23,487 nt of DNA from a virus, in IMG/VR virus record IMGVR_UViG_3300023174_000643, positions 1 to 23,487 of that record; one strand, 5' to 3'. Below the pieces are notes generated by a model, which saw nothing but the letters and a program-made list of their open reading frames with translations, searched no databases and was not told where the DNA came from. Made by a program: the position numbers and the translations under genes. Shown piece by piece: positions 1,958 to 23,487 of this stretch; position 1 is the stretch's first letter, and each line of letters starts with the position of its first letter.

Positions 1958-1987
1958 ATTATTTTACCTTTCTAAGGTTAGTAGTCA

Positions 1988-2482
1988 TTATGCTTTTAAT
2001 ATTCCGTAGATGGTGAAGGTTGAACCTGAAGCAATATTAAAACCATCACCCAATAAACTTATTGATGTAATTGCAGAGGTACTTCTCCATAACATAACAG
2101 AAGCATAAACAGCACCGCTTGGGTAATTTTCTCTTGATAAAAAAGTTTTATAGGTTGTGGTGTTAGAATAATTTTGAAAATTAACAATAGCGTTTCCAAA
2201 ACTATCTACTGCTTGACCTATTGTTAAATAACCATTAGCGCTATTTGTATTTCTAAAACTTCCAGCAGTAGAACCATCTCCATACATACCAGTACGAGAA
2301 TAATTTGTACTGCTATCACTATTAACTCTTAATAATAAATAATTATTACCACCCGAACCTGTAGTTTTACCATTTACAACTAATACTAAATCAGTATATG
2401 AACCACTAATAGAACTAAAGGTAACCGAAGCAGTTGCACTACCTAAAGTAGTTGTCGCTATCTTTTCGTATGTTGATGCCAT
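1988..2482 (-). CDS. Tandem beta-rich tail paralogue 2 (164 aa)
   Basis: Starts MASTYEKIATTTLGSATASV, then TFSSISGSYTDLVLVVNGKT, LRVNSDSSTNYSRTGMYGDG, FQNYSNTTTYKTFLSRENYP, VMLWRSTSAITSISLLGDGF and ends IYGILKA. Same block order as its neighbours on both sides. GGGAG six bases from ATG 2482. Its role is probably the same class of surface or adhesin subunit; three diverged copies suggest specialised or alternative binding. No signal peptide or membrane helix. Confidence 0.75.
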   Translation of the reverse strand: MASTYEKIATTTLGSATASVTFSSISGSYTDLVLVVNGKTTGSGGNNYLLLRVNSDSSTNYSRTGMYGDGSTAGSFRNTNSANGYLTIGQAVDSFGNAIVNFQNYSNTTTYKTFLSRENYPSGAVYASVMLWRSTSAITSISLLGDGFNIASGSTFTIYGILKA

Positions 2483-2491
2483 TATGCTCCC

Positions 2492-3037
2492 TTATTTAAT
2501 TCCGTATAGGGATATTGAAGTATATTGTGCAAAACTAGTATCTGTACTAAAACTTAAATCAGTAATAGCATTTGTATTAACTGCGTATAATGCTGAATAA
2601 AATGCTATTTCACCCGACCCATTAGCATCTGTACCAGTTAAACTTCTTATTGTTTTATTTTTATTTGTATTTGTATAATCTAAAATATCTATTATTACTG
2701 TACCAAAAATATTTGTAAAACCTGCGGCAGGTATATTTCCTATTGCTAAATTAGTTGTGCTAGTTCCAGCAGCAACACTCGCACCATCGGCATATAAATA
2801 ATGCCGTCTAGTCATAGTATTACTATTTATAGTCATCTTAAAATTTTGAAAAGTTGAACCACTAGTTGTATCTTTAGCCAAACATCTAACCTGTAAATGT
2901 GTATATGTAGAAGGTATTGAACTAAAAGTAACAGTAGAACTTCCACCTGAACCAACAGTTACGGTCGCAATAGATTCATAACTACCAGTAATTCTTTGAT
3001 AATTAGATGAAGCGTAGATACCTAAGATTGGACTCAA
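2492..3037 (-). CDS. Tandem beta-rich tail paralogue 1 (181 aa, TTG start)
   Basis: First of three tandem paralogues. Core: TGSYESIATVTVGSGGSSTV, TFSSIPSTYTHLQVR, RRHYLYADGASV, IDILDYTNTNKNKT, LYAVNTNAITDLSF and a SISLYGIK end. Start chosen at TTG 3037, which overlaps the previous stop as TTGA and has GGAG seven bases upstream; an open frame back to a TTG at 3079 has no ribosome site and would overlap the 138-aa gene by 46 bases. Likely beta-sandwich surface proteins in the fibre or tail-tip apparatus; family common in uncultured phages as I recall, function unproven. Confidence 0.68.
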   Translation of the reverse strand: MSPILGIYASSNYQRITGSYESIATVTVGSGGSSTVTFSSIPSTYTHLQVRCLAKDTTSGSTFQNFKMTINSNTMTRRHYLYADGASVAAGTSTTNLAIGNIPAAGFTNIFGTVIIDILDYTNTNKNKTIRSLTGTDANGSGEIAFYSALYAVNTNAITDLSFSTDTSFAQYTSISLYGIK

Positions 3038-3450
3038 GATAGATCTCCAATTATTAAGAACGTGTTTGAGGCTGTACAAATAACTGAAGCTGCTGAGTAC
3101 TGCGCCCTTAGTTTAGGAGCAGCGGCAGAAGCACCAGTTGAAGTAATAGTAACACCAGCACCTGCTGCAAAGGTTACCTGACCCGCACCAGTTTGAGCAA
3201 TACTTACTTGATCATTGGCTGAGAATACTGATGGAGGTACTGTTACTGTAATAGCAGAAGCATTGCTTGCTTGGACTAGTTTGTCCTTATCGCCAATAAC
3301 TAGCGTATATGTGGTACCAGTCTGTGAATTAAAGCCTACAAGGTTATTACCGGTAGGACCTGTAGGTCCTGTTGAGCCAGTACTACCTGTTGGACCCGTT
3401 GGTCCTGTAGGTCCTAAAGTATTTGGATTTGGGCTAATACTTACTGACAT
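3034..3450 (-). CDS. Collagen-linker plus duplicated fibre domain (138 aa)
   Basis: Short N-terminus (MSVSISPNPNTL), seven Gly-X-Thr triplets (residues 13-33), then residues 44-138, a beta domain about 60% identical by eye to the C-terminus of the 289-aa protein (TGTTYT, KLVQ, NASAITVTVP, VFSA, QTGAGQVT, TSTGAS, RAQ, SAA, IGD in the same order). Looks like a shortened fibre carrying the same receptor or trimerisation domain on a collagen stalk. Start 3450 with GGAG eight bases upstream and TAATG overlap; the stop TGA overlaps the next TTG start. Confidence 0.75.
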   Translation of the reverse strand: MSVSISPNPNTLGPTGPTGPTGSTGSTGPTGPTGNNLVGFNSQTGTTYTLVIGDKDKLVQASNASAITVTVPPSVFSANDQVSIAQTGAGQVTFAAGAGVTITSTGASAAAPKLRAQYSAASVICTASNTFLIIGDLS

Positions 3451-4658: not shown

Positions 4659-5561
4659 TTACTTGGAGTAGTGAGTTCTGATAGGGAACAGAGATTGCAA
4701 CTTAACAGACTCTTCTTGGAGACGTTGTTGGTACAAAGCGAAAACATATTTAGAAGCTGAAGCACCAGATGTTGAAGGTAACTTAGTATCTGCTAGATCT
4801 GCCTCGGCGCTGGTAAGGTTAATTCTACCGGTATCAAGATAAGACAGTAATCTGTATGCAGCACCGAGAGTAGTAACATCTCTTGTGGATTCTGGTAATC
4901 CTGTAACTGTCGTATAATTATCAGTGCTATTAGTGAGGTTATTTGGTAAAGCGGAATAGTAGACTTGGACCGTACGACCAGGCATAATCTTGTCATAAAT
5001 ATTCACCGTCTTTGTTGTATTAAATGCTGCTACGTTAGCCATCTTATCGATACGCCACTTGTTAACTGGTAACCATTCTTTAGATGGACCAACAGTCTGC
5101 CAAGATATATACAGCACATCTCTTGCATCATTTGGTAAAGTGTATGCAACTTGCGCTGCATTAAAAGTAAAAGTAGTTGAATAGATACCGAATAGTTTTG
5201 GATAGTAAGAACTGATCGTATCGTTAATAGCTTGTTGAATAGTTGTTCTAGGAAAGGTAGGAGTCATAGTAATCTGAGCGTTCTCAGCGTGAGGAGATGG
5301 TGTAGTTCCTTGGTATCCTCTACCAAATCCTGGTATTACATTAAGAGTTAAGTTAGTTCTATCAAAGGATGTAACCCAGATAAGTTCATCACCAATCTCA
5401 ATAATACCTTTAGCAAGGTTCTCTGCTGATCCAATCTGGATAGATAGGTCAGTAGCAGTAATGCCACCAGTGTTGGCTAGGTTAGTTATGCGATCTTGAC
5501 GAAGCGTATAGCCTGCAAGATTTGCTCTAACCTCAGATATCATCTGACTAAGTGTTGTCAT
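4659..5561 (-). CDS. Connector/adaptor-like structural protein (300 aa)
   Basis: A 300-aa protein. N-terminus MTTLSQMISEVRANLAGYTL; residues about 35-100 form a beta module (EIGDELIWVTSFDRTNLTLN, then GFGRGYQGTTPSPHAENAQI); helix FPRTTIQQAINDTISSYYPK; middle beta region (YTLPNDARDVLYISWQTV, ~140-210); C-terminal helices (YRLLSYLDTGRINLTSAEAD, YVFALYQQRLQEES). This helix-beta-helix plan, with 'QAINDTISSYYPKLFGI', is what I expect of phage head-tail adaptor or neck proteins, the only such candidate in the window. Start 5561 with AGGTGG; inside the last codons of the glycosyltransferase. Placement among fibre genes is unusual, so assignment stays moderate. Confidence 0.6.
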   Translation of the reverse strand: MTTLSQMISEVRANLAGYTLRQDRITNLANTGGITATDLSIQIGSAENLAKGIIEIGDELIWVTSFDRTNLTLNVIPGFGRGYQGTTPSPHAENAQITMTPTFPRTTIQQAINDTISSYYPKLFGIYSTTFTFNAAQVAYTLPNDARDVLYISWQTVGPSKEWLPVNKWRIDKMANVAAFNTTKTVNIYDKIMPGRTVQVYYSALPNNLTNSTDNYTTVTGLPESTRDVTTLGAAYRLLSYLDTGRINLTSAEADLADTKLPSTSGASASKYVFALYQQRLQEESVKLQSLFPIRTHYSK

Positions 5562-6609
5562 TACCCACCTTATCTCTGTAGAACTTTAAATTTGTTTGTA
5601 ATCTTTCATCTGTTGGTGTTATCTCTAACGCCTTCTTACCGTGCTCATATGCTTCTTGCCACTGTTCTAAGTTCCAAGCCGATACTGCAATCAGATCATC
5701 TGCCATATGAGTCCAAGCCCAATCCTCTGATAAGAACTCATTTGTTCTAACAGTTTGTTCTAGGCTTATCTTGGCTACTCTGTTACATTCCTTCCACTTC
5801 TTTTGGTGGTAGTAATAGTTAGCCAAAGCTAATATAGATTCTCTACTCTGATAAACCTCAGTAGCCTGAATCAAATACTCTTCTGCATTATCGGGATCTG
5901 TCTTAGATAGAATCCGTAACGCATAAGACTTCTCTGCTGGAAATACACTGACATCTAAATACTTTTTTAGAGTCTCTGTTGCCTGTGGAAATTTCTGTTG
6001 GTAAAAGTATTCTCTTCCTAGATAATATAAGTTTCTACTATCAGGGTTTTCTTTAGCTGCCAGTTCAAGCATAGGCAGGTAATTACTTCTAGATTTCCCA
6101 CCATCTGGTAAGTGCCAAGACTCTATGTCATACTCTTTAGATGTCTCTTCACCTTCACGATCATAACCTTGCGGTACTTCGTGGATGCGATAAGACCATC
6201 TAACATTATTTCTAGTATGGATTCTAAATCCTAAGAATGATGCTTTAGGTGTTTTATCAGGATTAAAATCTGTTACAAATCTATAACGAGGTTTATGTGT
6301 ACCATCTTTATAGGCTTGCTCTAATCCTGCTCGCCAGCCTGGAAGCATAATCTCATCCATATCCATTGCGATACAGTAATCAGCATCGGCTGGTACTAAA
6401 GCAAGGGATGCGTTCCTAGCATCATCAAATCTAAATGGTTTAACTGAGATTGTATAAACTGTTATCCCAAGTTCTTTAGCAATTTTAACGGTATCATCAG
6501 TTGAACCGGTATCTGCTATAATATGATAATCAGCTTCTTTAGTTGACTCATACCATCTTTTGACGTGCTTTGCTTCGTTTAAAGCGATAGTGTAGATAGC
6601 AACTTTCAT
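5548..6609 (-). CDS. Glycosyltransferase family 2 with TPR-like C-terminus (353 aa)
   Basis: Transfers a sugar from a nucleotide-sugar donor to an unknown acceptor. N-terminal GT-A fold (residues 1-120): MKVAIYTIALNEAKHVKRWY, ADTGSTDDTVKIAKELG and DADYCIAMDMDEIMLPGW, with the DxD metal site at D83-D85-E86. Middle (about 120-185) has VRWSYRIHEVP and IESWHLPDGGKSRS, typical of GT2 enzymes of the SunS/tetratricopeptide type. Residues about 190-345 are helical repeats (NLYYLGREYFYQQKFPQATE, LALANYYYHQKKWKECNRVA, WQEAYEHGKKALEITPTDE). No signal peptide, so cytoplasmic. It lies between two fibre regions; ribosome site weak. Overlaps the next gene by 14 bases. Confidence 0.85.
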   Translation of the reverse strand: MKVAIYTIALNEAKHVKRWYESTKEADYHIIADTGSTDDTVKIAKELGITVYTISVKPFRFDDARNASLALVPADADYCIAMDMDEIMLPGWRAGLEQAYKDGTHKPRYRFVTDFNPDKTPKASFLGFRIHTRNNVRWSYRIHEVPQGYDREGEETSKEYDIESWHLPDGGKSRSNYLPMLELAAKENPDSRNLYYLGREYFYQQKFPQATETLKKYLDVSVFPAEKSYALRILSKTDPDNAEEYLIQATEVYQSRESILALANYYYHQKKWKECNRVAKISLEQTVRTNEFLSEDWAWTHMADDLIAVSAWNLEQWQEAYEHGKKALEITPTDERLQTNLKFYRDKVGNDNT

Positions 6610-6618
6610 TACGCTATT

Positions 6619-6849
6619 CTACATTCCACCTAACATTAAGATATCGGGCAACGCCGTTGCACTTGCACCTGTTGAACCAGTAGCACCAGTAGCACCTGTT
6701 GGTCCTGCAACTGTTGAAGTTGCACCAGTAGGACCGGTAGGTCCAATAGATCCTGTAGAACCAGTTGGTCCGGTAGGACCAGTTGGTCCCTGTGCTCCAA
6801 CAATAGCACTAACCCACGCTGACCCATCCCAGTATTTGAGCTGAGCCAT
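6619..6849 (-). CDS. Short collagen-like protein (76 aa)
   Basis: Anchor [17 protein letters not shown], of the YWDGSAWV type found in phage fibre proteins, then 14 Gly-X-Y triplets (residues 18-63, GPT, GAT, GST) broken by STVA after triplet 9, and a hydrophobic tail ending PDILMLGGM. The STVA-GPTG break matches the one in the 517-aa fibre. Start 6849 within TAATG; GAGGAA about ten bases upstream. Perhaps a mini-fibre or a linker that joins larger fibres by triple-helix formation; function inferred. Confidence 0.75.
6661..6798 (-). repeat. Short collagen-coding repeat tract
   Basis: Encodes residues 18-63 of the 76-aa protein: 14 Gly-X-Y triplets with one STVA interruption. Same nine-base period as the longer tract at 7751-8428. 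Confidence 0.85.

Positions 6850-6949: not shown

Positions 6950-6950
<1 letters not shown>
6849..6950 (-). CDS. 33-aa acidic protein
   Basis: Begins [20 protein letters not shown] and ends [12 protein letters not shown]; acidic tail. The start overlaps the collagen gene's stop (TAATG) and its own stop overlaps the next start (TAATG), so it sits in a coupled chain of three genes. Too short for the usual gene-length cut-off. I do not know the family; the neat overlaps at both ends support it being real. Confidence 0.62.
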
Positions 6951-8499
<1,549 letters not shown>

Positions 8500-8503
<4 letters not shown>

Positions 8504-11046: not shown

Positions 11047-11973
11047 TTAGCCGTTTGTTGCAGCAGATTCAACACGATAGATAGCTGCTTGACGAAGTAG
11101 TGACCATCCGCCAAAGTAGTACCAACCGATTGTGTGGAAACGACGTAGAGCGTCGATTTGTGGTCCGATAACGGTTGAGATATCTTGACCTTGCGCCTCT
11201 GCAAGCGCTTCACGTCCGGCAATTACTGCCTTGTAGACGTTAGTTGTTCCATTTGTTGCGTAAGGAACGCGAGGTGTTTCAACAATGAACGCACCTTCAA
11301 TTACGCCAACAGCACCAGCGACGAACGGAGTGCGATCAACGTACTTAGTTAGGTCCTGGAATCCACCAGTTCCTGTCTCAGCACGAAGGTCAGCAGTCTG
11401 ACGTGGGTGTAGGTATCCTGCATATAGTTCGCCAATACGAGGCAGAGCCTTGTTTGTACGAAGTTCAGTTACAGCCTGACGGATGTCAGAAACTGTTAGT
11501 AACTGATCAGCCTTGATACCTGCTGTGTTGGTTGCTGTTCCTGCATAGATTGCGTTTGAGCCTGCTGTTAAAACAGATGCTACAACAGCATCGATAGAGT
11601 CTGCAGCGTTATAAGCGATGATATCAGCAAGTGCTGCATCTACATCGTTGAAAGAAGTTAGGTTTAACTTCTTAGTTGTTGTTACGGCTGAGCCGTACTC
11701 TTGAAGTGTTACAGTAACCTGATTTGGGTTACCTAGGGCAATAGAAGAAACATCTGTTGATTCTGTCAAAGTTGAAGTAGCTTGTGCTAAATCAGAATAG
11801 ATTGAGAATACAACTGATGATCCTGGCATTGCCTGTTGTACTGGCTTAACATCAGCAAGCGCTCTCATCACTGGGATGGAACGTAGGGCCATACGTACGT
11901 ATTGATCATACGCGGTCTGGACCAAATTGCTAATTGCCGAGGTACCGGTTAACGAACCGCCTGGAATTGCCAT
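11047..11973 (-). CDS. Major capsid protein, N4-gp56-like HK97 fold (308 aa)
   Basis: Main shell subunit. Starts MAIPGGSLTGTSAISNLVQT. The sequence follows the N4-gp56 type of HK97-fold capsid protein: N-terminal helix with AYDQYVRMALRSIPVMRALA, then GSSVVFSIYSDL, a central ADIIAYNAADSIDAVVASV helix, LYAGYLHPRQTADLR, the FVAGAVGVIEGAFIVETPRV strand region, and the C-terminal GWYYFGGWSLLRQAAIYRVE. There is no long acidic delta domain; a separate scaffold gene lies upstream. The nearest Shine-Dalgarno-like AAAGG is about 11 bases from ATG, longer than usual for such an abundant protein; coupling or another signal may help. A strong hairpin follows the stop. Confidence 0.9.
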   Translation of the reverse strand: MAIPGGSLTGTSAISNLVQTAYDQYVRMALRSIPVMRALADVKPVQQAMPGSSVVFSIYSDLAQATSTLTESTDVSSIALGNPNQVTVTLQEYGSAVTTTKKLNLTSFNDVDAALADIIAYNAADSIDAVVASVLTAGSNAIYAGTATNTAGIKADQLLTVSDIRQAVTELRTNKALPRIGELYAGYLHPRQTADLRAETGTGGFQDLTKYVDRTPFVAGAVGVIEGAFIVETPRVPYATNGTTNVYKAVIAGREALAEAQGQDISTVIGPQIDALRRFHTIGWYYFGGWSLLRQAAIYRVESAATNG

Positions 11974-11999: not shown

Positions 12000-12470
12000 T
12001 TATAACCCAGATTGGCGTAGAACTTCGTCCAACTCTTCCTTGCTGTTAGTGTTAAGAATCTTTTTAAGAATATCATCTGATGAATCAGGAGTTAATCCAG
12101 AATCAATAGCGCTATTCATTTTCTTATACGCAGCCGCTTGAGCCGGGTCTACGACCTCTTGGGTTGGTTCAGCAGTTACACCAAATACGTCTCCGTATTC
12201 GTTTAACCACTTAGACAAAGACTCCTCAGTTGGGTCTATGTCCGAAGGAATGAAAGAAGCGATCTTCTTATTCACTCCACGAGCTTCGAGGACATCTTTA
12301 ATAGCTCGTTCTCTTTGTGCTTTGGAAAGTCCGTCAAACTGAGATTTTAATTCAGCTAACTCTTTTTCCTTTTGCTTGTTTGCTTTACGCAACTGTTTAA
12401 CGAGATCATTATTCTGATTAGATTCCTGTGTGAAATCGTCATCTTCATCCTCGTAGTCGAAATTGGACAT
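12000..12470 (-). CDS. Capsid scaffolding protein (156 aa)
   Basis: Assists assembly of the procapsid and then leaves. Features: very acidic N-terminus (MSNFDYEDEDDDF), then a charged coiled coil (about residues 20-55, LVKQLRKANKQKEKELAELK), then RAIKDVLEARGVNKKIASFI and WLNEYGDVFGV, a combination I know from scaffold proteins of actinobacterial phages, and a short helical C-terminus (ELDEVLRQSGL). It sits directly before the major capsid gene as scaffolds do. Start chosen at ATG 12470, with GGGAG eight bases upstream; an ATG at 12485 (five residues longer, MGDGL) is also in frame but its GGGAG would lie inside the coding region. Confidence 0.8.
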   Translation of the reverse strand: MSNFDYEDEDDDFTQESNQNNDLVKQLRKANKQKEKELAELKSQFDGLSKAQRERAIKDVLEARGVNKKIASFIPSDIDPTEESLSKWLNEYGDVFGVTAEPTQEVVDPAQAAAYKKMNSAIDSGLTPDSSDDILKKILNTNSKEELDEVLRQSGL

Positions 12471-12508
12471 TAGTCCATCTCCCATTCTGTTTGTAGTTTC
12501 GCGGACCT

Positions 12509-12599: not shown

Positions 12600-13823
12600 T
12601 TAGTAAGAGCCAGCTCCTGGCGCTCCATATTGCTGGTAACTTCCAGCACGATCTCTACTTAATGCTCCACCACCAGCACCAGATGAACCACTAAATGTGG
12701 CTGTCTCTAATTGAGATAGGCGCTTGCGCTTCTTAGCGGCTTCTGCAGAGTTTGCAAGATTAAATATTTCTTGCTCTGCTTGTGTTTGAGTATAAGGAGA
12801 CTCTTGATAAATCTGTGAAAGTTTTTGACCGGTAGGTAGGAACTCTGCAATAGCACCATAACCTTGTTGTGCTTGGCCTTTAGTTATACCGTAATTTGCT
12901 AAGTTTTCAGCGGCTAATTGACTTGTAGCAAGTCCTGCACCAAGTGCTGCTCCACCAATTTCAGCAGCAGTTACTTTGCGCTTAATATCAGTTAGTGCTT
13001 TAGTTGGATCAAGGGTATAAGCCAAAATATCGCCATCTGTAATATCAGGATAAAAAGATCTAAGTGCTTTTTTAACCTCTGGGTTAGCATTAACAACTCT
13101 GCTTTGTGCAGTCATTACTCGATCTTCTAATTCTGATGCAGATACATCATTAGCAAGAAGTTGATTAAATCCAGATTGAGTTCCTAAAGAATCTTTAGCA
13201 TAATAACTAGCAGGTAATCCATAATTACGCATAACATTCTGATATTGATCCTCAAGACCTATGTATTCGGCAGGGGTTAACGCTCTAAGACCTTTTGCAA
13301 TACGATCTTGGTTTGCAGCAAATCGTTTTTTATAAGCATCTGTTTGTTGTAAACGAAGTGCAAATTCTGATGGAGATACATTTTCTTGAACTAATGCTTT
13401 AAGAGGTTCTACTAAAGAACCTAATCCATATTGAGAAAATTGCTGATATAGTAAATCATATGCAGATTGACGAGATTCTTTAGCTGCTGCTGCTTGTGCT
13501 TCTTGCTGTTGTTTAAGTAGTAATGCTTGTTGCGCTGCAAATCGTTCTGCCTCTGACGGTCCAGTTGCTGGAGTAACGGGAGCAGAACCACCACTACCTA
13601 ATTTTTCTACAATCCCACCAAGAGCACCTAATGATTCTGATAAACCACCTAATGTGTTAAGAATTGATTTATCAACTGAGGTACTGCTTGTTGATTTTGG
13701 TGTTGCTTTAGGAGTAGAAGTACTAACTGTAGTAGTAGATGGAATACCGCTATAACCGCCTACAGTTTTTGTGGTAGTACTAGGAATACCGCTGTAACCA
13801 CCTGATGTTGTTGAACTGGCCAT
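12600..13823 (-). CDS. Candidate internal/minor head protein (407 aa) with N-terminal repeats
   Basis: Starts at ATG 13823 (AGGGG six bases upstream), three bases after the previous stop. The N-terminus is Ser/Thr/Gly-rich with two copies of GGYSGIPSTTT (residues 8-18 and 22-32). Residues about 90-150 form a Gln/Ala-rich helix. The core (about 150-300) includes VSPSEFALRLQQTDAYKKRF and DITDGDILAYTLDPTKA, which I associate with a conserved structural protein of actinobacterial and freshwater phages. There is a small Gly/Ala stretch (EIGGAALGAGLA) and a Gly/Ser-rich C-terminus ending GAPGAGSY. Together with the 447- and 1565-aa genes it makes a block between portal and scaffold. Exact role unknown. 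Confidence 0.75.
   Translation of the reverse strand: MASSTTSGGYSGIPSTTTKTVGGYSGIPSTTTVSTSTPKATPKSTSSTSVDKSILNTLGGLSESLGALGGIVEKLGSGGSAPVTPATGPSEAERFAAQQALLLKQQQEAQAAAAKESRQSAYDLLYQQFSQYGLGSLVEPLKALVQENVSPSEFALRLQQTDAYKKRFAANQDRIAKGLRALTPAEYIGLEDQYQNVMRNYGLPASYYAKDSLGTQSGFNQLLANDVSASELEDRVMTAQSRVVNANPEVKKALRSFYPDITDGDILAYTLDPTKALTDIKRKVTAAEIGGAALGAGLATSQLAAENLANYGITKGQAQQGYGAIAEFLPTGQKLSQIYQESPYTQTQAEQEIFNLANSAEAAKKRKRLSQLETATFSGSSGAGGGALSRDRAGSYQQYGAPGAGSY
13728..13802 (-). repeat. In-frame tandem repeat encoding GGYSGIPSTTT twice
   Basis: Two copies of an 11-residue unit (residues 8-18 and 22-32 of the 407-aa protein), period 14 residues or 42 bases. The peptide is identical while the DNA differs at several third positions, so the peptide appears selected rather than freshly duplicated. 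Confidence 0.85.
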
Positions 13824-13826
13824 TAC

Positions 13827-15170
13827 TTACCCCTGGAATCCGAAGTCTTTGAGAACTTGCATTACCGAACTTGATACTTCATCTCTAGCATTATTGGTGT
13901 ATTGCCAACGAGGATCTTTACGTAATGCCCGTTGAAAATCATATATAGACATTTCTTTATCAGGGCCAATAGCACCTCTAAGAACTGGATCATTAAGATC
14001 AATACTGGTAGAAGGTAATTCTAAAACTGCGGCCATAGTAGTTTTATATGGAGCGTAAACTGAATCAAGATCTACACCAGTATTGAGTAATTGCTTAACG
14101 TGATCAGGCATACCGTTAGCAGCAATACTTCTAATTTGATTTTTAATAACATCAAGGTTTGTGCCATTTTGTATTTGTTTAGACCAGTCATCAATTTGAG
14201 CTTGAGATATTGTCTTGCCTAATCCATTTGCTAAAATTGTATCAGATATAGACTGTGTAGTTAAAGATGCTTTTTGTGCTTTCTTAGTAGAAAATTCTGG
14301 AAGTTTTTGAATTTCTGAAACTAAGAATTGATCTTTATCTAAACCACCTGAATATTGAGTTGAAGTAACATTACCTGATTTAGTAGATACTGCTTTAGTT
14401 GCGGCTTTTCTTTCAGCAGCATTAAGTTTCTTTGTGTAGACATCAATTTCTGAAGCAGTTGCATCTCTTCCAAGTTGTTGCTTAAAAACATTATTGATTG
14501 TAGCAGCGGCTTCAGTAGGAGCAGATATACTGGTAGTAAGGGTTACTGATGGTCCGCCACTGGTAACACCTTCTAATTTTTTAGCGGCAATAAACTCATC
14601 AATTGTTTGACTGATACCAAAATTGGTATTACGCATTTGGTTATCAGATAATGCTTTTTGGTATTGACCTACAAGATTTTCAATATCTTTGTAATTAGGA
14701 ACTGCATATCCAGCACTAGTTAATTGATCAGCAATTGCTTTTTTCTCAGGATCGGATTTACCGTATAACCATTTAGGAGCAGCAGCAATTTCCTTTGATA
14801 TATCTCTTGTTTTAGGAGCACTACCAGCTGTAGTAGTTGTACCCGTTGTGCCGGTGGTACTAACTGGTGGTGTATATACCTCACCTTTTTTGGCTGCTTC
14901 AAGTTCTGATTTAATAGTATTTTCTGGCTTAGATTGTTTTTGTTGTTCTTGTAAATCTTTGTATTGTTTAAGAGCAGCTTGAGCGGCTTTAGAAGCATCA
15001 TAAGCATCTCTAACTTTTTGCAAGGCTGCTTCTTTTGCGGCACCTTCTAGTGGCTTACCATTTATGGTGTACTGTGCTGCTTCTACAGCTTGCTTGTATT
15101 TTCCTTGAGCATTATTTTTTTCAGCCGTAAGGCGTAATTCTTCTTTGCTAGGATTTTTAATAATACCCAT
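13827..15170 (-). CDS. Candidate internal/minor head protein (447 aa)
   Basis: A 447-aa protein with an N-terminal Lys/Ala/Gln helical region (about residues 1-95; coiled-coil-like), a Thr/Gly low-complexity linker (around 100-120), a middle segment with FKQQLGRDATASEIDVYTKK (near 235-255, similar in feel to LGR-type repeats of structural proteins), and a conserved-looking C-terminus (YDFQRALRKDPRWQYTNNAR then VLKDFGFQG). I have the impression that this C-terminal pattern recurs in actinobacterial phage head operons; I cannot check. Start ATG 15170 with GGGAG four bases upstream; one base separates it from the 1565-aa gene's stop. Probably works with its two large neighbours in the head. Confidence 0.75.
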   Translation of the reverse strand: MGIIKNPSKEELRLTAEKNNAQGKYKQAVEAAQYTINGKPLEGAAKEAALQKVRDAYDASKAAQAALKQYKDLQEQQKQSKPENTIKSELEAAKKGEVYTPPVSTTGTTGTTTTAGSAPKTRDISKEIAAAPKWLYGKSDPEKKAIADQLTSAGYAVPNYKDIENLVGQYQKALSDNQMRNTNFGISQTIDEFIAAKKLEGVTSGGPSVTLTTSISAPTEAAATINNVFKQQLGRDATASEIDVYTKKLNAAERKAATKAVSTKSGNVTSTQYSGGLDKDQFLVSEIQKLPEFSTKKAQKASLTTQSISDTILANGLGKTISQAQIDDWSKQIQNGTNLDVIKNQIRSIAANGMPDHVKQLLNTGVDLDSVYAPYKTTMAAVLELPSTSIDLNDPVLRGAIGPDKEMSIYDFQRALRKDPRWQYTNNARDEVSSSVMQVLKDFGFQG

Positions 15171-15171
15171 T

Positions 15172-18100
15172 TTACTCCCTTACCAATGATGAAAATAGAA
15201 CATCGTATGCAGATTTAGCACTAGCATTTGTTGACGCTAATTCTTTTAATCTAGAAATAACATTAACTTTTAACATATCTTTATAGTCCTGAGAATTAGC
15301 ATTTGAGCCAAAGGCTGAGTCCCTTATAGATACATAATTTTCATACTCTTGAACCATAGAATTTAATACGGCTCTAGTATTAGGTTGTACATCTTTAAAT
15401 TTAGGATCATCAAGCATTGAACGTAGGTCTTGGTAAGCCCTTAACTTTTCAACTTTACTTGCTGCACCCTTGCCTAGTTCTACTTGTAACATAGGTCTTA
15501 CGCCTTTAAATTGTGTGGACCAAGTATCCCATTGGTCTTTAAGCATACGACGATATGAATCAGAAAATGCAGTTTTTAAATTAGCATCAAGTTCATCTTT
15601 TTTAGCAAAATACTCTTGCTTATCTTTAGCTGTTTGTACTTCTGATAAGAAATCTGTAAGAGTTTTGTTAACTTTAAGACCTGACTTTTGAAGTAATTTA
15701 TATGCGTTGAAATCAAAATTACCGGATTGTGGAATCAAGAATGAAGCACCTTGAGGATATTTTTTCATAAGTTCAGGATTCTGATTTATCCAGTTAGCAG
15801 CACTTTCTACCGGAGCAATCTTGGCTACTGTAGTTTTATCAGATTCTGAAATCATATAAGGCATTTGATCTGGATAATTCTTTACCCATTCTTTTGTTGT
15901 CTTATCGATATCAAAATTATTAGCAGATAACATTTGATTAAAGACTTGTTTATAGTTGGTAGCACCATTGTCTCTTACCCATTTAGCCATATCTGACTTT
16001 AAGGTTATTTGAGGAGAAGCAGGTGCAACAAAACCAAAAGCAAATCGTAATAACAATACAGTTAATGTAGAGGATTGCAATTTATCTTGATAGTTAGCAA
16101 TTTCACCTTCAGTTGGTGGAACTTCTAATCCAGTTGCTGGGTCAATTTTAGGTTTTAGCCCGTGACCTGTAGCCTCAAGATAGGTTGCTGCCTTGCGATA
16201 AGCGGAAGCATATTGAGAATTACGTTCATCTCTATTTAAAGTCTGTAGTAACCGGTTTATATGTGATGGAAATACTGCAGAAACTAAAGGTTGATCTACT
16301 CCGTATGATCCTAATAGATAACCCTCAAGATCTTTAATTTGAGGTATAGCTGCACCAACAAAACTTAATGGTACTGCCGCTAAAGGACCAGCAAATGTAG
16401 GAAATAATGAATCAGGGTTTAAAGATGGTGTAATCATCTTTAGTTTAGCACCAAATTCTAAAGGTGCTGGAACTTTAAACGCATCTTTCCAACCAAATAT
16501 ATTAGTAACTCTAGACATTACAGAGTAAACAGGTGCTAATCCTGGATAGAAAAAGTATTGATCTCCGTTATCATCTGTTTGTACAAAACCAGAATGGGTA
16601 ATGCCTTCATAAGTAAGTGATGCACGAGTCAATGCTTCTGGATTGTACCTAACGGTACGACCTACGCGACGATAAAAATCTTCAGTAGCACGATAGAATC
16701 GTGCAAAATTGCGAATAGACATAGAAAGTTGACTGCGAACTTGAGGATTATCTACATAAGACAATACTCGGTTCTTTGCAATATCTTCGGCTATGGCAAT
16801 AATTTGTTTTTTAGCGTTAGTCTCTGCTTTTATTAAAGCTTCGCCAGTTTTACCAGCAGTTGCTTTTTCCATAAAGGCTTTTTCAAACCCTGTTTTATCC
16901 ATAGTTTTACGAACGTTAATTACAGCGTCTTGTACTAGAGGTATTCTAGACATACGGGAGTTTGCTGCACCCATAATATCCCAACCTTTTTCCATAATAC
17001 CAGTAGCAAAATTATTATTATCTAATACAGGTATAAGAGTTGGACCTGAAATAAATTCAGGGGCAAGATCAAATTGACCTTTACCAGGAATATGAGTTAA
17101 GTTAATTCCTTCAGAGTTAACAATTACGTTTCCGTCTTTGTCCACCTTGCGAACTTTACTTAGTAAATCGGTATTGATATCACCGTTACGTTTACTAAAA
17201 TATGGTTTTACTGAATCGTAAATTGCTTCAGCGTGACGTTGTGTAGTTACACCATTTTTAGTATATAATTGAAAACGAGCGAGATCTTTTTCTGGAAGAT
17301 TATCTAGATACTTGCGAATATTGTTAATAGCATCTACACGAGCAATTTTAGGGTCTAAATTTTTAATAGCCAAAGCGCCAAGATCAGAATTAGCGTTAAC
17401 GGCAATAGACATTAACCAAGATACTCTATTTTCTTGACTTAATACTGGATTAAAATTGTCAAATGAGGTACCGGTTTGTTGTTTATATTTAATACCGTCT
17501 ACTTCAAATGCTTCTACTTTTCCATACTTAGATACGTCATCTGTAACGTTTAAATATTGACTAGCACCACGAAGGGAATTTTTTCCACCTTCAGATACTG
17601 CTTCTGATAAAGCATCAATATCGCCAAGTAGTGTGTGCTCAGCTATTATTTCAGCACCGCGTTTATCTAGTTTTTGACCTATACCATCTTCAATAACTGC
17701 TCTGGCTTGAATAGCACGAACAGCATTAACATCGCCTTTATCAATTGCTTTGGCAACTTCTTCTTGATATTTAGCAATATCATCTCTATGAATAAACTTA
17801 TTTATAAAACCTAAGTTACCATCTTTCTTTGCTACATTTAATCTTGTAGAAAGAAACTTGCCTTTAACAATTCCCCAAGGAGAATCACCAATAGCAACGT
17901 GAACACCTAGATCTTCTGCTGCATTACGAATAACGAAACGAGGACCAGCAAGGGTACCAAACACCCAAGCAGATGTTATTTTATCAGCCCATTTTTTATA
18001 ATTAGGACCAAACATTCTAGTAAGTAATGCGCCTTTAGCAGCATAACTATCTAAATCCATAACTGAAGGAACTGAAATACCAGATGATAATTGCCAGTCT

Positions 18101-19869
18101 AATACCGCTAATTCTTGTCCATCAAATTCTGCTGGGTTATAAGAAACTGTTTTTTCTTTACCAGTTAAAGAATCAATTTCTTTTTTAAGTATAGTTGGAG
18201 CATAGCGTTGTTTTCTAGCAAACTGTTGTTCAAGTTGAACTAAACCTGAATCGGATTTGTTCCATCCACGAACTTCAGCAAGTGTTCCCCAAATACCTTG
18301 AAATATTTGACGCTTCTGTCCTTCATCACCAGCGGCAAAAGCCTCTGAAATAATTTTAGAATGATATCTAGTATTGCCTAAACGAGCTAATCTATATACT
18401 TGAGTAGCAGCATCAGGGCTATTGACATCAAAAAAGTTATTTGCAAAATAAGGAGTGGTAGCAAACTTTTGAGCAAAACGATCTATCTTGCCTTGAATTT
18501 GATTTAATCCTAAACGGATAGCACCGTCTTGTTTAATTTTACCAACTGCTTTTTCTGCTTGACCTATTGCTTCAGCGTTTTTACCTAAATTGGTAATAAT
18601 TGTTTCAGGGGTTGCACCTATACCGTAAAGATTACGAACTAAGGTTTGACCAATTTTATCAATATTAAGAATTTTATTACCGGTAGTTAATGCTACAACT
18701 CTAGTTTTACGAGCAAAATCTAATTGAGGAATTAAAGGAGTTTTACGAGCAGCTTGGCCTTTAAGAATAAAAGTTGTATCTTGAACATTTTTTAAATAAT
18801 TACTTGCAGTAGGAGCGTCCTTAACACCAGCTTTAATAAATTCATCTACTGCTGAAGGACCAAACTCAGGAGCTAAACGTCTTAACTGAGTTGATGACTT
18901 TTCCATTGCAGCAAGATCGCCTGCTTTACGGGCTTTAGATAGATTATCTAGTTCAGTTCCATATACATTAAAGAAATTTGAAACTTTAGGATTAGAAAAT
19001 ACACGATCTACTTGTGCTTCATTATTTATAGCGCCAAGTAAAGAGCGACCATAAGTTTGTTGTTCCTTGCCTATAACGTTATAAAGTAACCAATCACCAG
19101 CATCATATGCTTTTTTGGCTTTACCTAATGCAAGGGTTGGATCTGCAAATATGCGGTATGCCGCATCTACTGTTCCAGAAATACCTTTGTATAAAAAACC
19201 TGAACCTTCTAAAGATCCTGGTAATAATAAGTTAGCTACAAAACGTCCTGGAGAATATTTTGCTGCTTGAACAGCATCTAAAGCATCTTGGAATAAAGGA
19301 TCTTTATTTTGTGCAGCATCTGCTGCAATCTTTTTTTCTTCGTCAGTTCCGTTAATTGCAATATCAGCAAGGCGTTGACCTTGTGCTACTTTAGTTGCAA
19401 CTGAAATATAATTGTTACCAAATTTTCTTTTAGCGTCAGCAATACGACCTGGACTGAATACGTTATCGCCTTTATCGTTTGCTATTTCAAATGCTTTACC
19501 AATATCAACACCTTGGTCTACAGCGATAGCACCGGTTCGATAAACACGGGTCATAAAATCTGATACTTCGTTTAATGCTTTAAAAGGGGCAGCAATTACT
19601 TCTTTAGTGCCTTGACCTAAGTAATGAAAAGCATTACCTAACCAACCACGCTTTGCTGCTAATTTAGGATCTTCTCCACCAAACATAGCAACGTGAGCAT
19701 TTTGTTGATCTTGTGGTAATGAAGCAAAAGTTTGTTGTGCATACTCTACAGGCATTGCTAATAGGTTACGGTGTGAATCTACCAGTTTACCTAAGCCATC
19801 CATTTGTGCTTGTTCAGCAGGAGTAAGTCCTGCTTGTGCAGCAGCAGCTTTAATATTTATACTAGCCAC
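15172..19869 (-). CDS. Giant head-associated / candidate internal virion protein (1565 aa, GTG start)
   Basis: The largest gene here. Begins MASINIKAAAAQAGLTPAEQ at a GTG (19869) preceded by AGAGG. Mostly helical with many Lys/Asp/Ala/Gln residues. Hydrophobic or amphipathic stretches lie near residues 626-665 (TSAWVFGTLAGPRFVIRN), 1150-1175 (FAGPLAAVPLSFVGAAI) and 1265-1285 (LTVLLLRFAFGFVAPA). An Arg/aromatic segment near 1040-1070 contains SIRNFARFYRATEDFYRR. No lysozyme, ADP-ribosyltransferase, protease or polymerase motif was recognised. Lying between portal and scaffold, it is in the place where phages encode minor head or ejected proteins. A tape measure is less likely, because those follow the major tail gene downstream of the capsid. 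Function as an ejection protein is inference. Confidence 0.8.
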   Translation of the reverse strand: MASINIKAAAAQAGLTPAEQAQMDGLGKLVDSHRNLLAMPVEYAQQTFASLPQDQQNAHVAMFGGEDPKLAAKRGWLGNAFHYLGQGTKEVIAAPFKALNEVSDFMTRVYRTGAIAVDQGVDIGKAFEIANDKGDNVFSPGRIADAKRKFGNNYISVATKVAQGQRLADIAINGTDEEKKIAADAAQNKDPLFQDALDAVQAAKYSPGRFVANLLLPGSLEGSGFLYKGISGTVDAAYRIFADPTLALGKAKKAYDAGDWLLYNVIGKEQQTYGRSLLGAINNEAQVDRVFSNPKVSNFFNVYGTELDNLSKARKAGDLAAMEKSSTQLRRLAPEFGPSAVDEFIKAGVKDAPTASNYLKNVQDTTFILKGQAARKTPLIPQLDFARKTRVVALTTGNKILNIDKIGQTLVRNLYGIGATPETIITNLGKNAEAIGQAEKAVGKIKQDGAIRLGLNQIQGKIDRFAQKFATTPYFANNFFDVNSPDAATQVYRLARLGNTRYHSKIISEAFAAGDEGQKRQIFQGIWGTLAEVRGWNKSDSGLVQLEQQFARKQRYAPTILKKEIDSLTGKEKTVSYNPAEFDGQELAVLDWQLSSGISVPSVMDLDSYAAKGALLTRMFGPNYKKWADKITSAWVFGTLAGPRFVIRNAAEDLGVHVAIGDSPWGIVKGKFLSTRLNVAKKDGNLGFINKFIHRDDIAKYQEEVAKAIDKGDVNAVRAIQARAVIEDGIGQKLDKRGAEIIAEHTLLGDIDALSEAVSEGGKNSLRGASQYLNVTDDVSKYGKVEAFEVDGIKYKQQTGTSFDNFNPVLSQENRVSWLMSIAVNANSDLGALAIKNLDPKIARVDAINNIRKYLDNLPEKDLARFQLYTKNGVTTQRHAEAIYDSVKPYFSKRNGDINTDLLSKVRKVDKDGNVIVNSEGINLTHIPGKGQFDLAPEFISGPTLIPVLDNNNFATGIMEKGWDIMGAANSRMSRIPLVQDAVINVRKTMDKTGFEKAFMEKATAGKTGEALIKAETNAKKQIIAIAEDIAKNRVLSYVDNPQVRSQLSMSIRNFARFYRATEDFYRRVGRTVRYNPEALTRASLTYEGITHSGFVQTDDNGDQYFFYPGLAPVYSVMSRVTNIFGWKDAFKVPAPLEFGAKLKMITPSLNPDSLFPTFAGPLAAVPLSFVGAAIPQIKDLEGYLLGSYGVDQPLVSAVFPSHINRLLQTLNRDERNSQYASAYRKAATYLEATGHGLKPKIDPATGLEVPPTEGEIANYQDKLQSSTLTVLLLRFAFGFVAPASPQITLKSDMAKWVRDNGATNYKQVFNQMLSANNFDIDKTTKEWVKNYPDQMPYMISESDKTTVAKIAPVESAANWINQNPELMKKYPQGASFLIPQSGNFDFNAYKLLQKSGLKVNKTLTDFLSEVQTAKDKQEYFAKKDELDANLKTAFSDSYRRMLKDQWDTWSTQFKGVRPMLQVELGKGAASKVEKLRAYQDLRSMLDDPKFKDVQPNTRAVLNSMVQEYENYVSIRDSAFGSNANSQDYKDMLKVNVISRLKELASTNASAKSAYDVLFSSLVRE

Positions 19870-20282
19870 TACAAACCTCTAGATGCAGCTTGTTGGTAAA
19901 GAACGCCTATCTCGCCTGTAGTATCATAAGGTAATAGTTTTGCTAAAGTTGTTGATAGTTTAGTAGAAGCAACTCCTTGTTGCATCATAAGTGCTTCTGG
20001 TCCTGCACCTGGCCCTACAGAAATACCGTGAGTAATTGGTTCTTGTGGGCGTTGAGTTGGTGCAAATAATGGAGTTATTGGTGCTTGACTTGCTGCGCTA
20101 GTTACTTCTGATGTTGGTGCTGGACGTACATCTGGAGTCTTAGCAATAGGTGCACCTGATGCTATTTCACCCATTTGCTTTTGATCACCATAAAAATTAG
20201 CTGGCATACGATCTAAACGCTTTGCGTATTTGCCTGGACCTGATGCTCCCTTAATTGGGTTAACTGCGTCTTCAAGCGCCAT
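19869..20282 (-). CDS. Hypothetical head-region protein (137 aa)
   Basis: A 137-aa protein starting MALEDAVNPIKGASGPGKYA; Pro/Ala/Gly-rich and probably extended in the middle, with a helical C-terminus (LAKLLPYDTTGEIGVLYQQA). The start is clear: AGGAGG six bases before ATG at 20282. Proteins with this C-terminal LLPYDxTGEI pattern are, to my memory, found beside portal genes in actinobacterial phages, but the role is unknown. The stop TAG (19869-19871) shares one base with the GTG start of the 1565-aa gene, so the two are translationally coupled. Confidence 0.7.
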   Translation of the reverse strand: MALEDAVNPIKGASGPGKYAKRLDRMPANFYGDQKQMGEIASGAPIAKTPDVRPAPTSEVTSAASQAPITPLFAPTQRPQEPITHGISVGPGAGPEALMMQQGVASTKLSTTLAKLLPYDTTGEIGVLYQQAASRGL

Positions 20283-20672: not shown

Positions 20673-22421
20673 TTATGCCGCGCCGCCGATTGAGGCGAGC
20701 AATGATGCAATGTCAGGTTTACCTTGTGGTTGTTGGCCAGGAGCAGGGGCCGCACCGCCAGTTTGTACTGGAGTAGGCTGCGAGGCAGGGACGGGGGCCA
20801 TACCTGCTGCTGGCATCTGAGGCAACGGGGTTGCCTGCGGTTGTGGTTCAAGCGCAAAGGCTTTTTCCACAATGTTTTCAATCTGCATACCTTTTTGCCG
20901 TCCTTGAATTACTTCGGCAATGCGGTTAATGATTTGTGAAGGATCTTGTCCTTGTGCTGCAAGTGCTGGAATTGCTTGAGCATATTGTGCTACAGCAACT
21001 CTTAGTGCATCACGCATTTCTTCGATATCAACTTTTTGCTCTTCTTGAGTAACGTTAATCTCAACTGGAATCTCTCGTCTTACATAATCACGAGATACAA
21101 GTTTATCGCTACGCATCTGTAGTAATGCAATAACTGCACGGTTAGGATCTAGTCCTGACATAATTCCGTAGCGGACATCTACAGTGTAATCACCGTTGAT
21201 AGCACGGGCTGGAACATACTTCATTGTGAACGGAGTACCGTCATCAATTCCGCGAATCTCTTTTACTTTGCTACCAAATAGTTTCTCATCTACTTCAAAG
21301 CAGAGACCAATTAACTCAGTAAATACTCTAGCGAACTGTGCTTGTGCTGCTTTGATCTGTGTATCAAATCCAGCCTGTAATGCTTGAACACCGCGACCTG
21401 TTACAACGGATGCGTCTAATTGACCAGAGCGAGATTCAGGATAACGAGCACCCATACGAAGTTCACGCTCTAATACACCTGACTCTTGGAATACACCAGC
21501 AGGAAGTTCTAATGGAACTCGACGGATAGATTGTGGATTAGATGACCGCATAATCGCATCTGGTCCCAAAGCAAGTTCTTGTACATCTTGTGGAATAGCA
21601 ATAGGTGCTTGGATAGATTTTTCAGCAGCTTGAATCTGTAGTACTGCAAAACGAGCACGTGCTAACTGAACTGCTAGTACATCATCGAACTGTCCACGAG
21701 CCTCACCATCAATAGATGGACGGAAGGCAACACGAGCCATACACTTTCCGATTGGATTAGGTGTACGGGCTAGAACTAAATCTTTACGCTCTGGTACATA
21801 AATAGTATCTTGATCTTTATCGTGGTAACGAACTAAAGAAAGATATGGAGAGCCTGGTGTAAATAAATTCTTATTTAAAATCTGATCTGCATACTCTGGA
21901 TATAGTGATGCCAAAGTCTGTGCATCCATACCAACGATCTGTGTTAAAGATAAACAACGACCAAAGCGGTCAATCTCTGGGTATGAGCCAAATGGGTTGA
22001 TAAGTTTAATTGTTGGATCATTGTTCTCATAATCAAGATCAATCATACCAATCATCATTCCGTAGGTGTTATACCAATCAGCACCGGTATACATCTGAAC
22101 TTGTAGTTCGGAACGGTCTATATAATAATTTGCAATACGAGCACGGGTGTCTGCTGCTTTACGAGCGGCATCTGAAACCATATTAGAAGCAGAGCAACTA
22201 AATGTTGGTAGAGGTGCCATTGCCTCCGCTAGATCACGAGCGGAAACGTCAATAAGGTTAGCGATGAGAGGCTTTGGATATTCCTCTGAAAACATCGACG
22301 GATAAACTTTAGATATATCGCCTTGACGAACTGATAGTACATCACGCATACGTCCATCGCGTTGAGCGTACTTAGTTTGTAGACGAGATACCTTAGCAGT
22401 GATCTCTCTTATATTTAACAA
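20673..22421 (-). CDS. Portal protein (582 aa, TTG start)
   Basis: Forms the dodecameric ring at the capsid vertex through which DNA is packaged and ejected. Size (582 aa), position directly after terL and sequence style fit a phage portal: N-terminal helical region, KPLIANLIDVSARDLAEAMAP, then an aromatic-rich segment around YNTYGMMIGMIDLDYEN and INPFGSYPEIDRFGR, a middle helix rich in Gln/Ala (VQLARARFAVLQIQAAEKSI), and a Pro/Gln/Ala-rich flexible C-terminus. The start is TTG at 22421, preceded by AAGGAA with five-base spacing; the codons read TTG TTA AAT ATA. The next in-frame Met is residue 25 and would remove the conserved-looking N-terminus. The assignment rests on position plus pattern, since portals diverge strongly in sequence. 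Confidence 0.83.
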   Translation of the reverse strand: MLNIREITAKVSRLQTKYAQRDGRMRDVLSVRQGDISKVYPSMFSEEYPKPLIANLIDVSARDLAEAMAPLPTFSCSASNMVSDAARKAADTRARIANYYIDRSELQVQMYTGADWYNTYGMMIGMIDLDYENNDPTIKLINPFGSYPEIDRFGRCLSLTQIVGMDAQTLASLYPEYADQILNKNLFTPGSPYLSLVRYHDKDQDTIYVPERKDLVLARTPNPIGKCMARVAFRPSIDGEARGQFDDVLAVQLARARFAVLQIQAAEKSIQAPIAIPQDVQELALGPDAIMRSSNPQSIRRVPLELPAGVFQESGVLERELRMGARYPESRSGQLDASVVTGRGVQALQAGFDTQIKAAQAQFARVFTELIGLCFEVDEKLFGSKVKEIRGIDDGTPFTMKYVPARAINGDYTVDVRYGIMSGLDPNRAVIALLQMRSDKLVSRDYVRREIPVEINVTQEEQKVDIEEMRDALRVAVAQYAQAIPALAAQGQDPSQIINRIAEVIQGRQKGMQIENIVEKAFALEPQPQATPLPQMPAAGMAPVPASQPTPVQTGGAAPAPGQQPQGKPDIASLLASIGGAA

Positions 22422-22629: not shown

Positions 22630-23487
22630 TTAGATGAACTGTGTGTCCTTCTCCGCAAGTAGTTCATCGATGTTGACTACTACTCGTTTGCTCTTTTCAT
22701 AACTTGATAGGAATGGATTTCTCATATGATGCTTTGCATACTGTCCGTAATTAAGCATCTCTCTTGCTCTGATCTCGCAGAACCAAAGAGCCATTACCAT
22801 ATCGGTCTTACCCTTAGTAGTCGGAGACCAAGTTATCAACTGCTCGATTAAAGCTTTGACGTTCTCGGTTTGATCACTAGGTAAATGTATTAAGTTATCT
22901 CGATGGTGCTTGCCATCGGCTAATTGCTTTGTACCAAATAGGGTGGACATAGATGCCACACCGAAACCTGAATCCCATTTATTAGCACCGGTATGGTGTT
23001 CTTTTAAAACTACACCTCTTGATGCTAAGTGCATCTTGATACCTTCGTCTTGGGTTAAGAAAGCTTGGAAGGCGTTCTTCTCGACGATCCATTCACTAGG
23101 TTTGTAAATATCGGTCCAGTCAAAAATAAGTTGCCTAATTTGTGCCGGAGTAGGTCGAGTAATCTTATGAGCGTCCACAATATAACGCTTGTGGCTGATG
23201 CGATCAATAGCATAACAAACAACAGCAGTGTCACCAACCATAGCAGGATCAAGGCCACAAATGAAAGTGAATCCGTTAAGGTCTTTAGGATGCCCCGGAT
23301 AACCTGCATTAAGAGGACCAGCCTTTCTCATACCATCAATAGATCCTCTAACACATATTGGATCAAATATGGCATCATCTGAAATATCTTGTTGTTGGTA
23401 AATCAAAGCCCAGGTTGAAGCGTCCATAGATTGACGTTCGTTAAATAGGTTGCGACCATTCCATCTTGGGTATAGGCCGTCTTCATT
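22630..23487 (-). CDS. terL: Terminase large subunit (C-terminal nuclease part), 5' end outside window
   Basis: Motor and nuclease that cuts and packages phage DNA at the portal. The frame stays open upstream of the first internal ATG (23427) to the window edge, reading a WNGRNLFNER-type segment followed by WALIYQQQ, the usual end of the terminase ATPase domain; 285 codons are visible and the ATPase motifs are off-window. The RNase H-like nuclease is recognisable: GLDPAMVGDTAVVCYAID gives the first acidic residue, WIVEKNAFQAF the second (Glu) region, and KTDMVMALWF the last Asp before the terminal helix. Family knowledge: this order of acidic residues is the metal-binding nuclease centre of TerL. 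The stop codon (22630-22632) overlaps the Shine-Dalgarno of the next gene. The ATG at 23427 is internal, not the real start. Confidence 0.93.
   Translation of the reverse strand, partial: NEDGLYPRWNGRNLFNERQSMDASTWALIYQQQDISDDAIFDPICVRGSIDGMRKAGPLNAGYPGHPKDLNGFTFICGLDPAMVGDTAVVCYAIDRISHKRYIVDAHKITRPTPAQIRQLIFDWTDIYKPSEWIVEKNAFQAFLTQDEGIKMHLASRGVVLKEHHTGANKWDSGFGVASMSTLFGTKQLADGKHHRDNLIHLPSDQTENVKALIEQLITWSPTTKGKTDMVMALWFCEIRAREMLNYGQYAKHHMRNPFLSSYEKSKRVVVNIDELLAEKDTQFI

Follow-up and report, generated by a model that had tools for sequence, protein, structure and literature searches.

Ejection proteins are known mainly from phages of Gram-negative hosts, and phi29-like phages of Gram-positive bacteria are described as having none, in the available portion of a published account (PMC8954989). 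In the same account, the ejectosome of the short-tailed phage T7 (gp14, gp15 and gp16) includes a wall-hydrolase activity and, with gp16 (1318 aa), a helical protein of very large size, and membrane-inserting segments are predicted in gp14 and gp16 and not in gp15. In P22, the ejection genes 7, 20 and 16 can be replaced as a set, and foreign 7-20-16 sets function in this phage. The Sf6 proteins gp16 or gp20 fail in P22 when introduced singly, yet work jointly. Within the P22 virion cluster, genes 16 and 20 count as two of the most variable, and P22 mutants in 16 and 20 escape SieA (all from the accessible sections of PMC10883804). In API480, a podovirus of a Gram-positive host, the portal (gp6) is followed by one 31-kDa protein (gp7) and then by the capsid (gp8), with no giant protein in the order as given in the available part of PMC6937236. 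The interval between portal and capsid is therefore not a general ejection slot, and the arrangement with a giant protein described below is lineage-specific.

The closest described relatives of our locus carry such a giant. In the Beephvirinae it is annotated as “hypothetical” (for example Stella gp10, Immanuel3 gp9 and Abafar_00008; phrog_10618). Abafar is a podovirus by TEM, with a tail of 16 ± 2 nm, as stated in the accessible part of PMC11536984. The Planktophila phages LanE43AprE7 and LanE43AprF5 (OX376640 and OX376641, hereafter E7 and F5) encode giants of two types in the gene place studied here. Both infect “Ca. Planktophila” and were isolated on one host strain (PMC10202952). The main text of the same paper reports that they differ by an 8-kb island of three and four hypothetical proteins, to which it gives no function. 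In the literature as far as its text was available, our search found nothing assigning an ejection role to this island or to the giant.

The window, that is the whole stretch of DNA that was analysed, comprises 23,487 nt of the IMG/VR record IMGVR_UViG_3300023174_000643. Its relevant features are:

11047-11973, minus strand: N4-gp56 family major capsid protein (TIGR04387), constant flank
12000-12485, minus strand: scaffold-like protein (phrog_7813, unknown function), constant flank
12600-13823, minus strand: 407-aa cassette partner, p407 (phrog_8424), first ~100 aa variable
13535-19989, no strand: block exchanged between the window and locus L192, without detectable nucleotide similarity, with 88% identity on both sides
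13827-15170, minus strand: 447-aa cassette partner, p447 (phrog_6654)
15172-19869, minus strand: giant 1565-aa protein, class 0 of the superfamily, GTG start, mostly helical in its models, pI 9.1
16246-16746, minus strand: conserved core of the giant, residues about 1042-1208, RNFARFYRATEDFYRR ... PGLAPVY ... LKMITPSLNPDSLFPTFAGP
19869-20282, minus strand: 137-aa protein, p137 (phrog_8200), directly upstream of the giant, proposed adapter
19872-19982, minus strand: C-terminal 37 residues of p137, whose sequence type tracks the giant class
20673-22421, minus strand: portal-like protein, 582 aa, homologous to annotated Beephvirinae portals, constant flank
22630-23487, minus strand: terminase large subunit (TerL, by family match), cut by the window end

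An earlier note, made from the sequence alone, had placed a 1565-aa frame of about a fifth of the window in the portal-to-scaffold interval, and both the frame and the matches of its neighbours agree. Positions 15172-19869 form a single minus-strand open reading frame of 1565 aa (20% of the window), whose GTG overlaps the stop of the upstream 137-aa gene by one base. The giant is under purifying selection, with dN/dS of 0.107, 0.112, 0.158 and 0.220 in comparisons with the related loci L001, L002, L003 and L004, respectively, while a fifth comparison, with L034, was saturated. The frame is a real gene of a widespread, unnamed superfamily. As for its surroundings, the portal was identified solely through homology to annotated Beephvirinae portals and is accompanied by small genes between itself and the giant, and the scaffold-like protein has a weak match to the head scaffolding family phrog_648 (E 1.3e-4).

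Further along the window, two collagen-like Gly-Pro-Thr repeat proteins are encoded (6950-8503 and 6619-6849), the larger of which matches tail fibre families. In E7 and F5, a second variable island includes collagen-like genes (PMC10202952). Three adjoining proteins of 164-195 aa with a similar look (1439-3079) are possibly tandem copies of a receptor-side protein, and an HNH endonuclease-like gene within the fibre region (876-1421) is perhaps a homing element. Positions 5548-6609 (phrog_13126, E 6e-106) encode TPR repeats preceded by a glycosyltransferase family 2 domain.

Database searches bear out the previous impression that the giant has no recognisable enzyme motif. The window giant has no PHROG match at E <= 1 by direct hmmscan, and its single Pfam match lies below the cut-off (DUF2852, E 0.0057). 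NCBIfam, searched for classes 0 and 1 of the superfamily, returned no family, and representatives of classes 0 to 3 gave no enzyme family above the Pfam cut-off. In the PDB, the single sequence had no match at E <= 10, and profiles of the giant reached only chance level (best E 0.16 and 1.2). Phage N4 carries a giant virion RNA polymerase in its head, and a large head-borne enzyme of this kind would fit the size of our protein, its coding by a single gene and the N4-gp56 family capsid (TIGR04387) common to N4. Against this, none of the Pfam, NCBIfam and PDB searches lends support to an enzyme, and we regard such a role as very improbable.

The two structure models of the giant are of moderate confidence (mean pLDDT 68 and 65, pTM 0.33 and 0.36). 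Among the fold matches listed, the best reached Z 6.0 over 60 residues for the N-terminal model and Z 6.4 over 72 residues for the C-terminal model, and we read these matches as common helical arrangements. Foldseek, run against the PDB with the C-terminal model, gave nothing below E 0.25. Neither T7, P22 nor any other solved ejection protein was among the fold matches listed for these moderate-confidence models, just as the PDB gave no significant sequence match. A portal-linked core or internal protein, the kind of match by which the earlier note would have been supported, did not come up in the profile and structure searches run. At E <= 1e-3, BFVD returned five matches, four with the C-terminal and one with the N-terminal model, each to an uncharacterised or unnamed entry; Streptomyces phage Manuel is present at E 0.11. 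One scan of bacterial genome contigs found no relative encoded in any of 90 pattern-matching stretches.

Of the 51 invariant columns in alignment A4, 30 fall within the conserved core (residues 1042-1208), and pLDDT is below 50 across nearly all of this core. Such a combination could arise where folding needs an oligomer or takes place only after release, which is what the model may suggest here. The same note had named three hydrophobic or amphipathic stretches, and these turned out not to be special. The best 19-residue Kyte-Doolittle windows of the giant, 1155-1173 (1.49) and 1264-1282 (1.47), lie close to two of the three, and the latter is also where the family average peaks in hydrophobicity (1.44), while residues 626-665 are absent from the ten best. 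In shuffled copies, the median maximum window is 1.75, above the real best of 1.49. By this measure the giant has no membrane-helix-like segment above chance, and we rejected these stretches as membrane segments.

The 167 distinct giants fall into four classes at BLASTP >= 200 bits: class 0 (109 giants, window and E7 types), class 1 (41, Beephvirinae type), class 2 (13, F5 type) and class 3 (4, L195 type). The best BLASTP links between classes have E values of 1.5e-12 (0-1), 5.7e-26 (0-3) and 1.5e-15 (1-2). The class-1 HMM finds 99 of 99 class-0 giants (median E 1e-6, 97 below 1e-3, Z=10000; best reversed sequence 33), ten of ten E7-type giants (five below 1e-3), and all members of class 2 (13/13) and class 3 (4/4), each below 1e-3. 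The opposite search is weaker, with the class-0 HMM finding 41/41 class-1 giants at a median E of 0.029, eight of them below 1e-3 (best reversed sequence 38). Not one reversed-sequence control fell below E 1.3 in any class-HMM comparison. Some pairs stay apart when compared directly: class-2 HMM against class 0 (median E 110, best 0.023), class 3 against class 1 (median E 69, best 0.0027) and class 3 against class 2 (best 27). Judged by sequence comparison, the four classes are thus joined, some pairs through intermediates alone.

Early comparisons of the window family with the Beephvirinae giants were weak, giving P 0.0012 (probability 19.8%) and, in a second run, P 0.0032 (probability 10.0%; reversed controls 0.22-0.32) with hhalign, and best E values of 0.0041 and 2.4e-4 in the two directions with hmmsearch. 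The homology between classes 0 and 1 became firm once freshwater class-1 members had joined the profiles. Both controlled homology and gene neighbourhood place the window giant in the phrog_10618 superfamily. It shares with the Beephvirinae giant its gene place, a similar size, profile homology and homologous flanking proteins, while the two are about 19-20% identical over the aligned part.

The synteny extends over the whole head region. By phmmer, TerL, portal, p137, p447, p407 and capsid of the window all match proteins of the Streptomyces Beephvirinae Stella and Immanuel3, in the same order; for the scaffold-like protein, there was no phmmer match to the gene in the scaffold position of these two phages. 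Seven Beephvirinae records with an intact gene have the order portal, small genes, giant (1635-1648 aa), a 271-280-aa gene, two 430-438-aa proteins, one 370-390-aa protein, tRNA genes, scaffold-position gene and capsid. In Immanuel3, the two 430-438-aa proteins belong to phrog_6654 and the next one to phrog_8424, the families of p447 and p407. Immanuel3 differs from the window in that NlpC/P60 and SLT reside on proteins of their own, and in an additional gene of 274 aa. In an eighth record, JXY1, the giant is split into two annotated genes (L046 1679-6610). The JXY1 capsid gene is split as well (L046 14025-14893), so this looks like a sequencing error. A 1649-aa open frame lies antisense to the giant in Immanuel3 (L039 6611-11557, minus strand) and in an equally long IMG/VR record (L145 6100-11046, minus strand); it is probably an artefact of base composition.

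The superfamily is common in environmental data. A first scan of IMG/VR yielded 36 loci related to the giant, and a second at least 518 relatives among the 600 candidate stretches listed. Intact giants have 1458-1938 aa, and the phages that code them between portal and scaffold infect Actinobacteria and have an N4-gp56 capsid. WhiB, an actinobacterial marker, has a match in 19 of 26 related records, which were chosen for length, and none in the other seven. In G003, the contig of L011, WhiB matches lie at both ends (44-157 and 40490-40681), as if this 40.7-kb record had a terminal overlap and were close to complete. Counting loci, with some contigs present twice with different flanks (for example L003/L047, L011/L050, L059/L193 and L057/L196), a 137-type gene lies at most 60 bases upstream of the giant in 105 of 107 related loci, and the remaining two have no room for it. 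The 447-type gene follows the giant directly in 41 of the 107 loci, 48 have an extra gene of 198-257 aa in between (for example L005 8821-9474), and 18 have no 447-type match, in some cases owing to the contig end. By eye, the extra gene is similar to the central part of the 447-type protein, of which it might be a duplicate.

The length and helical content of the giant, together with weak BFVD matches to tape measures (best E 0.088 and 0.11), could point to a tail tape-measure protein. The short tail was seen in Abafar, and the syntenic giant of Abafar has 1644 aa. By the rule of 1.5 Å per residue for tape measures, given in the available text of PMC11536984, this giant would imply a tail of ~247 nm. 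Furthermore, none of 20 window proteins and none of ten G003 proteins convincingly match a tail-tube or tape-measure family, the best value being 0.038 for the scaffold-like protein. We reject the tape-measure reading, to which we give next to no credence, because the Abafar tail measures 16 nm despite a giant of this length.

Locus L192 is 94% identical to the window in its portal and 96% in its capsid, yet its giant is only 20% identical. At the DNA level, the two are 92/88% identical up to window position 19989 (codon ~99 of p137), cannot be aligned from there to 13535 (codon ~97 of p407), and are again 88% identical through the capsid gene and beyond. L195 behaves as L192, except for one 75% piece at the end of p447. 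Among the matches listed, six loci have portals 92-95% identical to that of the window, and their giants are 91% (L002, class 0), 20% (L192, class 1), 54% (L193, class 0), 55% (L194, class 0), 21% (L195, class 3) and 54% (L196, class 0) identical to the window giant. The converse is seen in L001, in which portal (76%) and p137 body (51%) have diverged from the window, but the p137 tail (89%) and the giant (92%) have not.

A scan with the portal yielded at least 80 loci, three of them already known; of the 77 new ones, 21 have no giant in their stretch and 12 have a cut one. Leaving out these 33, the 44 loci listed with a complete giant comprise 27 of class 0, 13 of class 1 and four of class 3. 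Portal identity was computed for the portal-scan loci and eight of the earlier loci, and its median to the window among the 44 is 79, 79 and 80% for classes 0, 1 and 3, respectively. For two class-1 giants, the identity values of 1 and 6% reflect poor global alignments. Among the portal-scan matches listed, p407 is largely constant after residue 100 (medians 60-63% in all three classes), and its first 100 residues are not constant across classes (21-22%).

E7 and F5 show the same pattern in cultivated phages. The E7 giant belongs to class 0 (1764 aa) and the F5 giant to class 2 (1711 aa), in the same place. The two genomes (L040, and L166 on the reverse strand) are 96% identical as far as E7 position 8372, at about codon 30 of the 137-type gene, and the identity is 98% from 16922 onwards (end of the 407-type gene). 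The 8-kb difference, the main one between the two, covers most of the 137-type gene, the giant, the 447-type and the 407-type gene, and smaller stretches outside it differ too. It is evidently the island that was reported for these phages. The whole 407-type gene lies inside it, and the two 407-type proteins are distantly similar (E 4.6e-13).

Giant, 447-type and 407-type genes are exchanged as a unit between otherwise close phages. The partnership of these three proteins proposed in the earlier note gains from this joint exchange and from the syntenic set in a TEM-verified short-tailed phage; it has to be narrowed for the kin of the window, in which only the N-terminal part of the 407-type gene is co-exchanged. 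The exchange also bears on the idea that the giant is an assembly or host-takeover protein, expressed but kept outside the virion, which would agree with the homologous phrog_10618 having no known function. An assembly protein is expected to follow its capsid and not to be swapped against a constant one. In addition, the position of the giant between portal and scaffold is stable across the families examined, and the giant is inherited with proteins whose Immanuel3 versions bear entry-type wall-hydrolase domains. We therefore consider a role outside the virion quite unlikely.

The small gene upstream takes part in the exchange with its end. In the four pairs examined by DNA (L192, L195, L001 and E7/F5), the upstream breakpoint lies before the p137 tail. 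In a set of 41 distinct 137-type proteins, identity over the C-terminal 37 residues is 60% when the giants belong to the same class and 10% when they belong to different classes, and none of 2000 label permutations, which ignore relatedness, reaches this difference. For the rest of the protein, the values are 46.4% and 45.5%, a difference reached in 464 of 2000 permutations. The tail of the 137-type protein is thus coupled to the giant class. The 137-aa protein is likely, from this sequence pattern, an adapter whose body fits the constant virion and whose C-terminal 37 residues fit a particular giant. The tail lies next to the giant gene, however, and physical linkage could by itself account for the coupling, the more so as the permutations take no account of relatedness. 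A docking role of the tail is therefore what we infer rather than observe.

Taken as a whole, the giant, the 447-type and the 407-type protein are probably a set that is packed in the head of short-tailed Actinobacteria phages and ejected ahead of or with the DNA, building a path into the cell. During assembly, the three would be loaded beside the portal via the 137-type adapter, and on infection they would exit through the portal before or with the DNA. The set would then open or bypass the cell wall, as the NlpC/P60 and SLT domains on the Immanuel3 partners may indicate, and would line a path to the membrane. Of the Immanuel3 counterparts of p447, one carries NlpC/P60 (E 3.6e-30) and the other SLT (E 2.5e-5), and the C-terminal part of p447 is common to these Beephvirinae proteins. 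A search of 69 p447 homologs from class-0 loci and of seven class 1/2/3 counterparts detected no lysin domain, and the wall-enzyme argument is thus one drawn from the Beephvirinae. A gene after the capsid that is labelled “tail tube protein” in the Kumquat record speaks against the proposed set.

An alternative is that the giant is a structural protein of the neck or short tail, such as a part of a hub or nozzle, which stays with the particle and is exchanged since it faces the host. The swapping of a host-facing part would look identical to what we observed, three Beephvirinae records name 447-type proteins “minor tail protein”, and one Immanuel3 counterpart matches PHROG tail families via its NlpC/P60 domain. 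The giant sits, however, between portal and scaffold, while the PHROG tail-fibre matches of the window are all downstream of the capsid gene. Moreover, modelling as a monomer gives no confident fold for its most conserved part, which is a better fit to a protein that refolds, though still compatible with a tail part. On balance, we hold a neck or tail protein to be unlikely, and by the best reading the giant belongs with the ejection proteins that would travel inside the virion.

Compared with the known systems, the proposed ejected set resembles that of T7 in the short tail seen in Abafar, in one very large helical member and in a wall-hydrolase component. It differs in having no detectable homology, in a hydrolase domain that Immanuel3 carries on proteins of its own and that did not turn up in the class of the window, and in hosts that are Actinobacteria. 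The likeness to gp7, gp20 and gp16 of P22 lies in a variable gene set that can be replaced as a set in a constant virion, with a co-dependence of its members that we infer for the window set. No sequence relation to the P22 set was seen, P22 gp16 has 609 aa (from the available portion of PMC8954989), and the host of P22 is Gram-negative.

It is conceivable, if somewhat speculative, that short-tailed phages of Actinobacteria have a class-switchable giant ejection complex for the Gram-positive-type envelope. A universal 137-type adapter would combine a constant body with a changeable 37-residue docking tail, and at least four classes would be block-exchanged among close relatives, driven by host or prophage blocks to DNA entry as with SieA against P22. 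An entry block akin to SieA could in this way drive the exchange of giant sets. That the block is swapped between similar virions, including those of two phages from a single host strain, suggests diversifying selection on the entry step itself in this setting. With this reading, an anonymous “hypothetical” giant and the unexplained island of the first cultured Nanopelagicales phages become a testable entry machine, in phages whose hosts are some of the most abundant freshwater bacteria.
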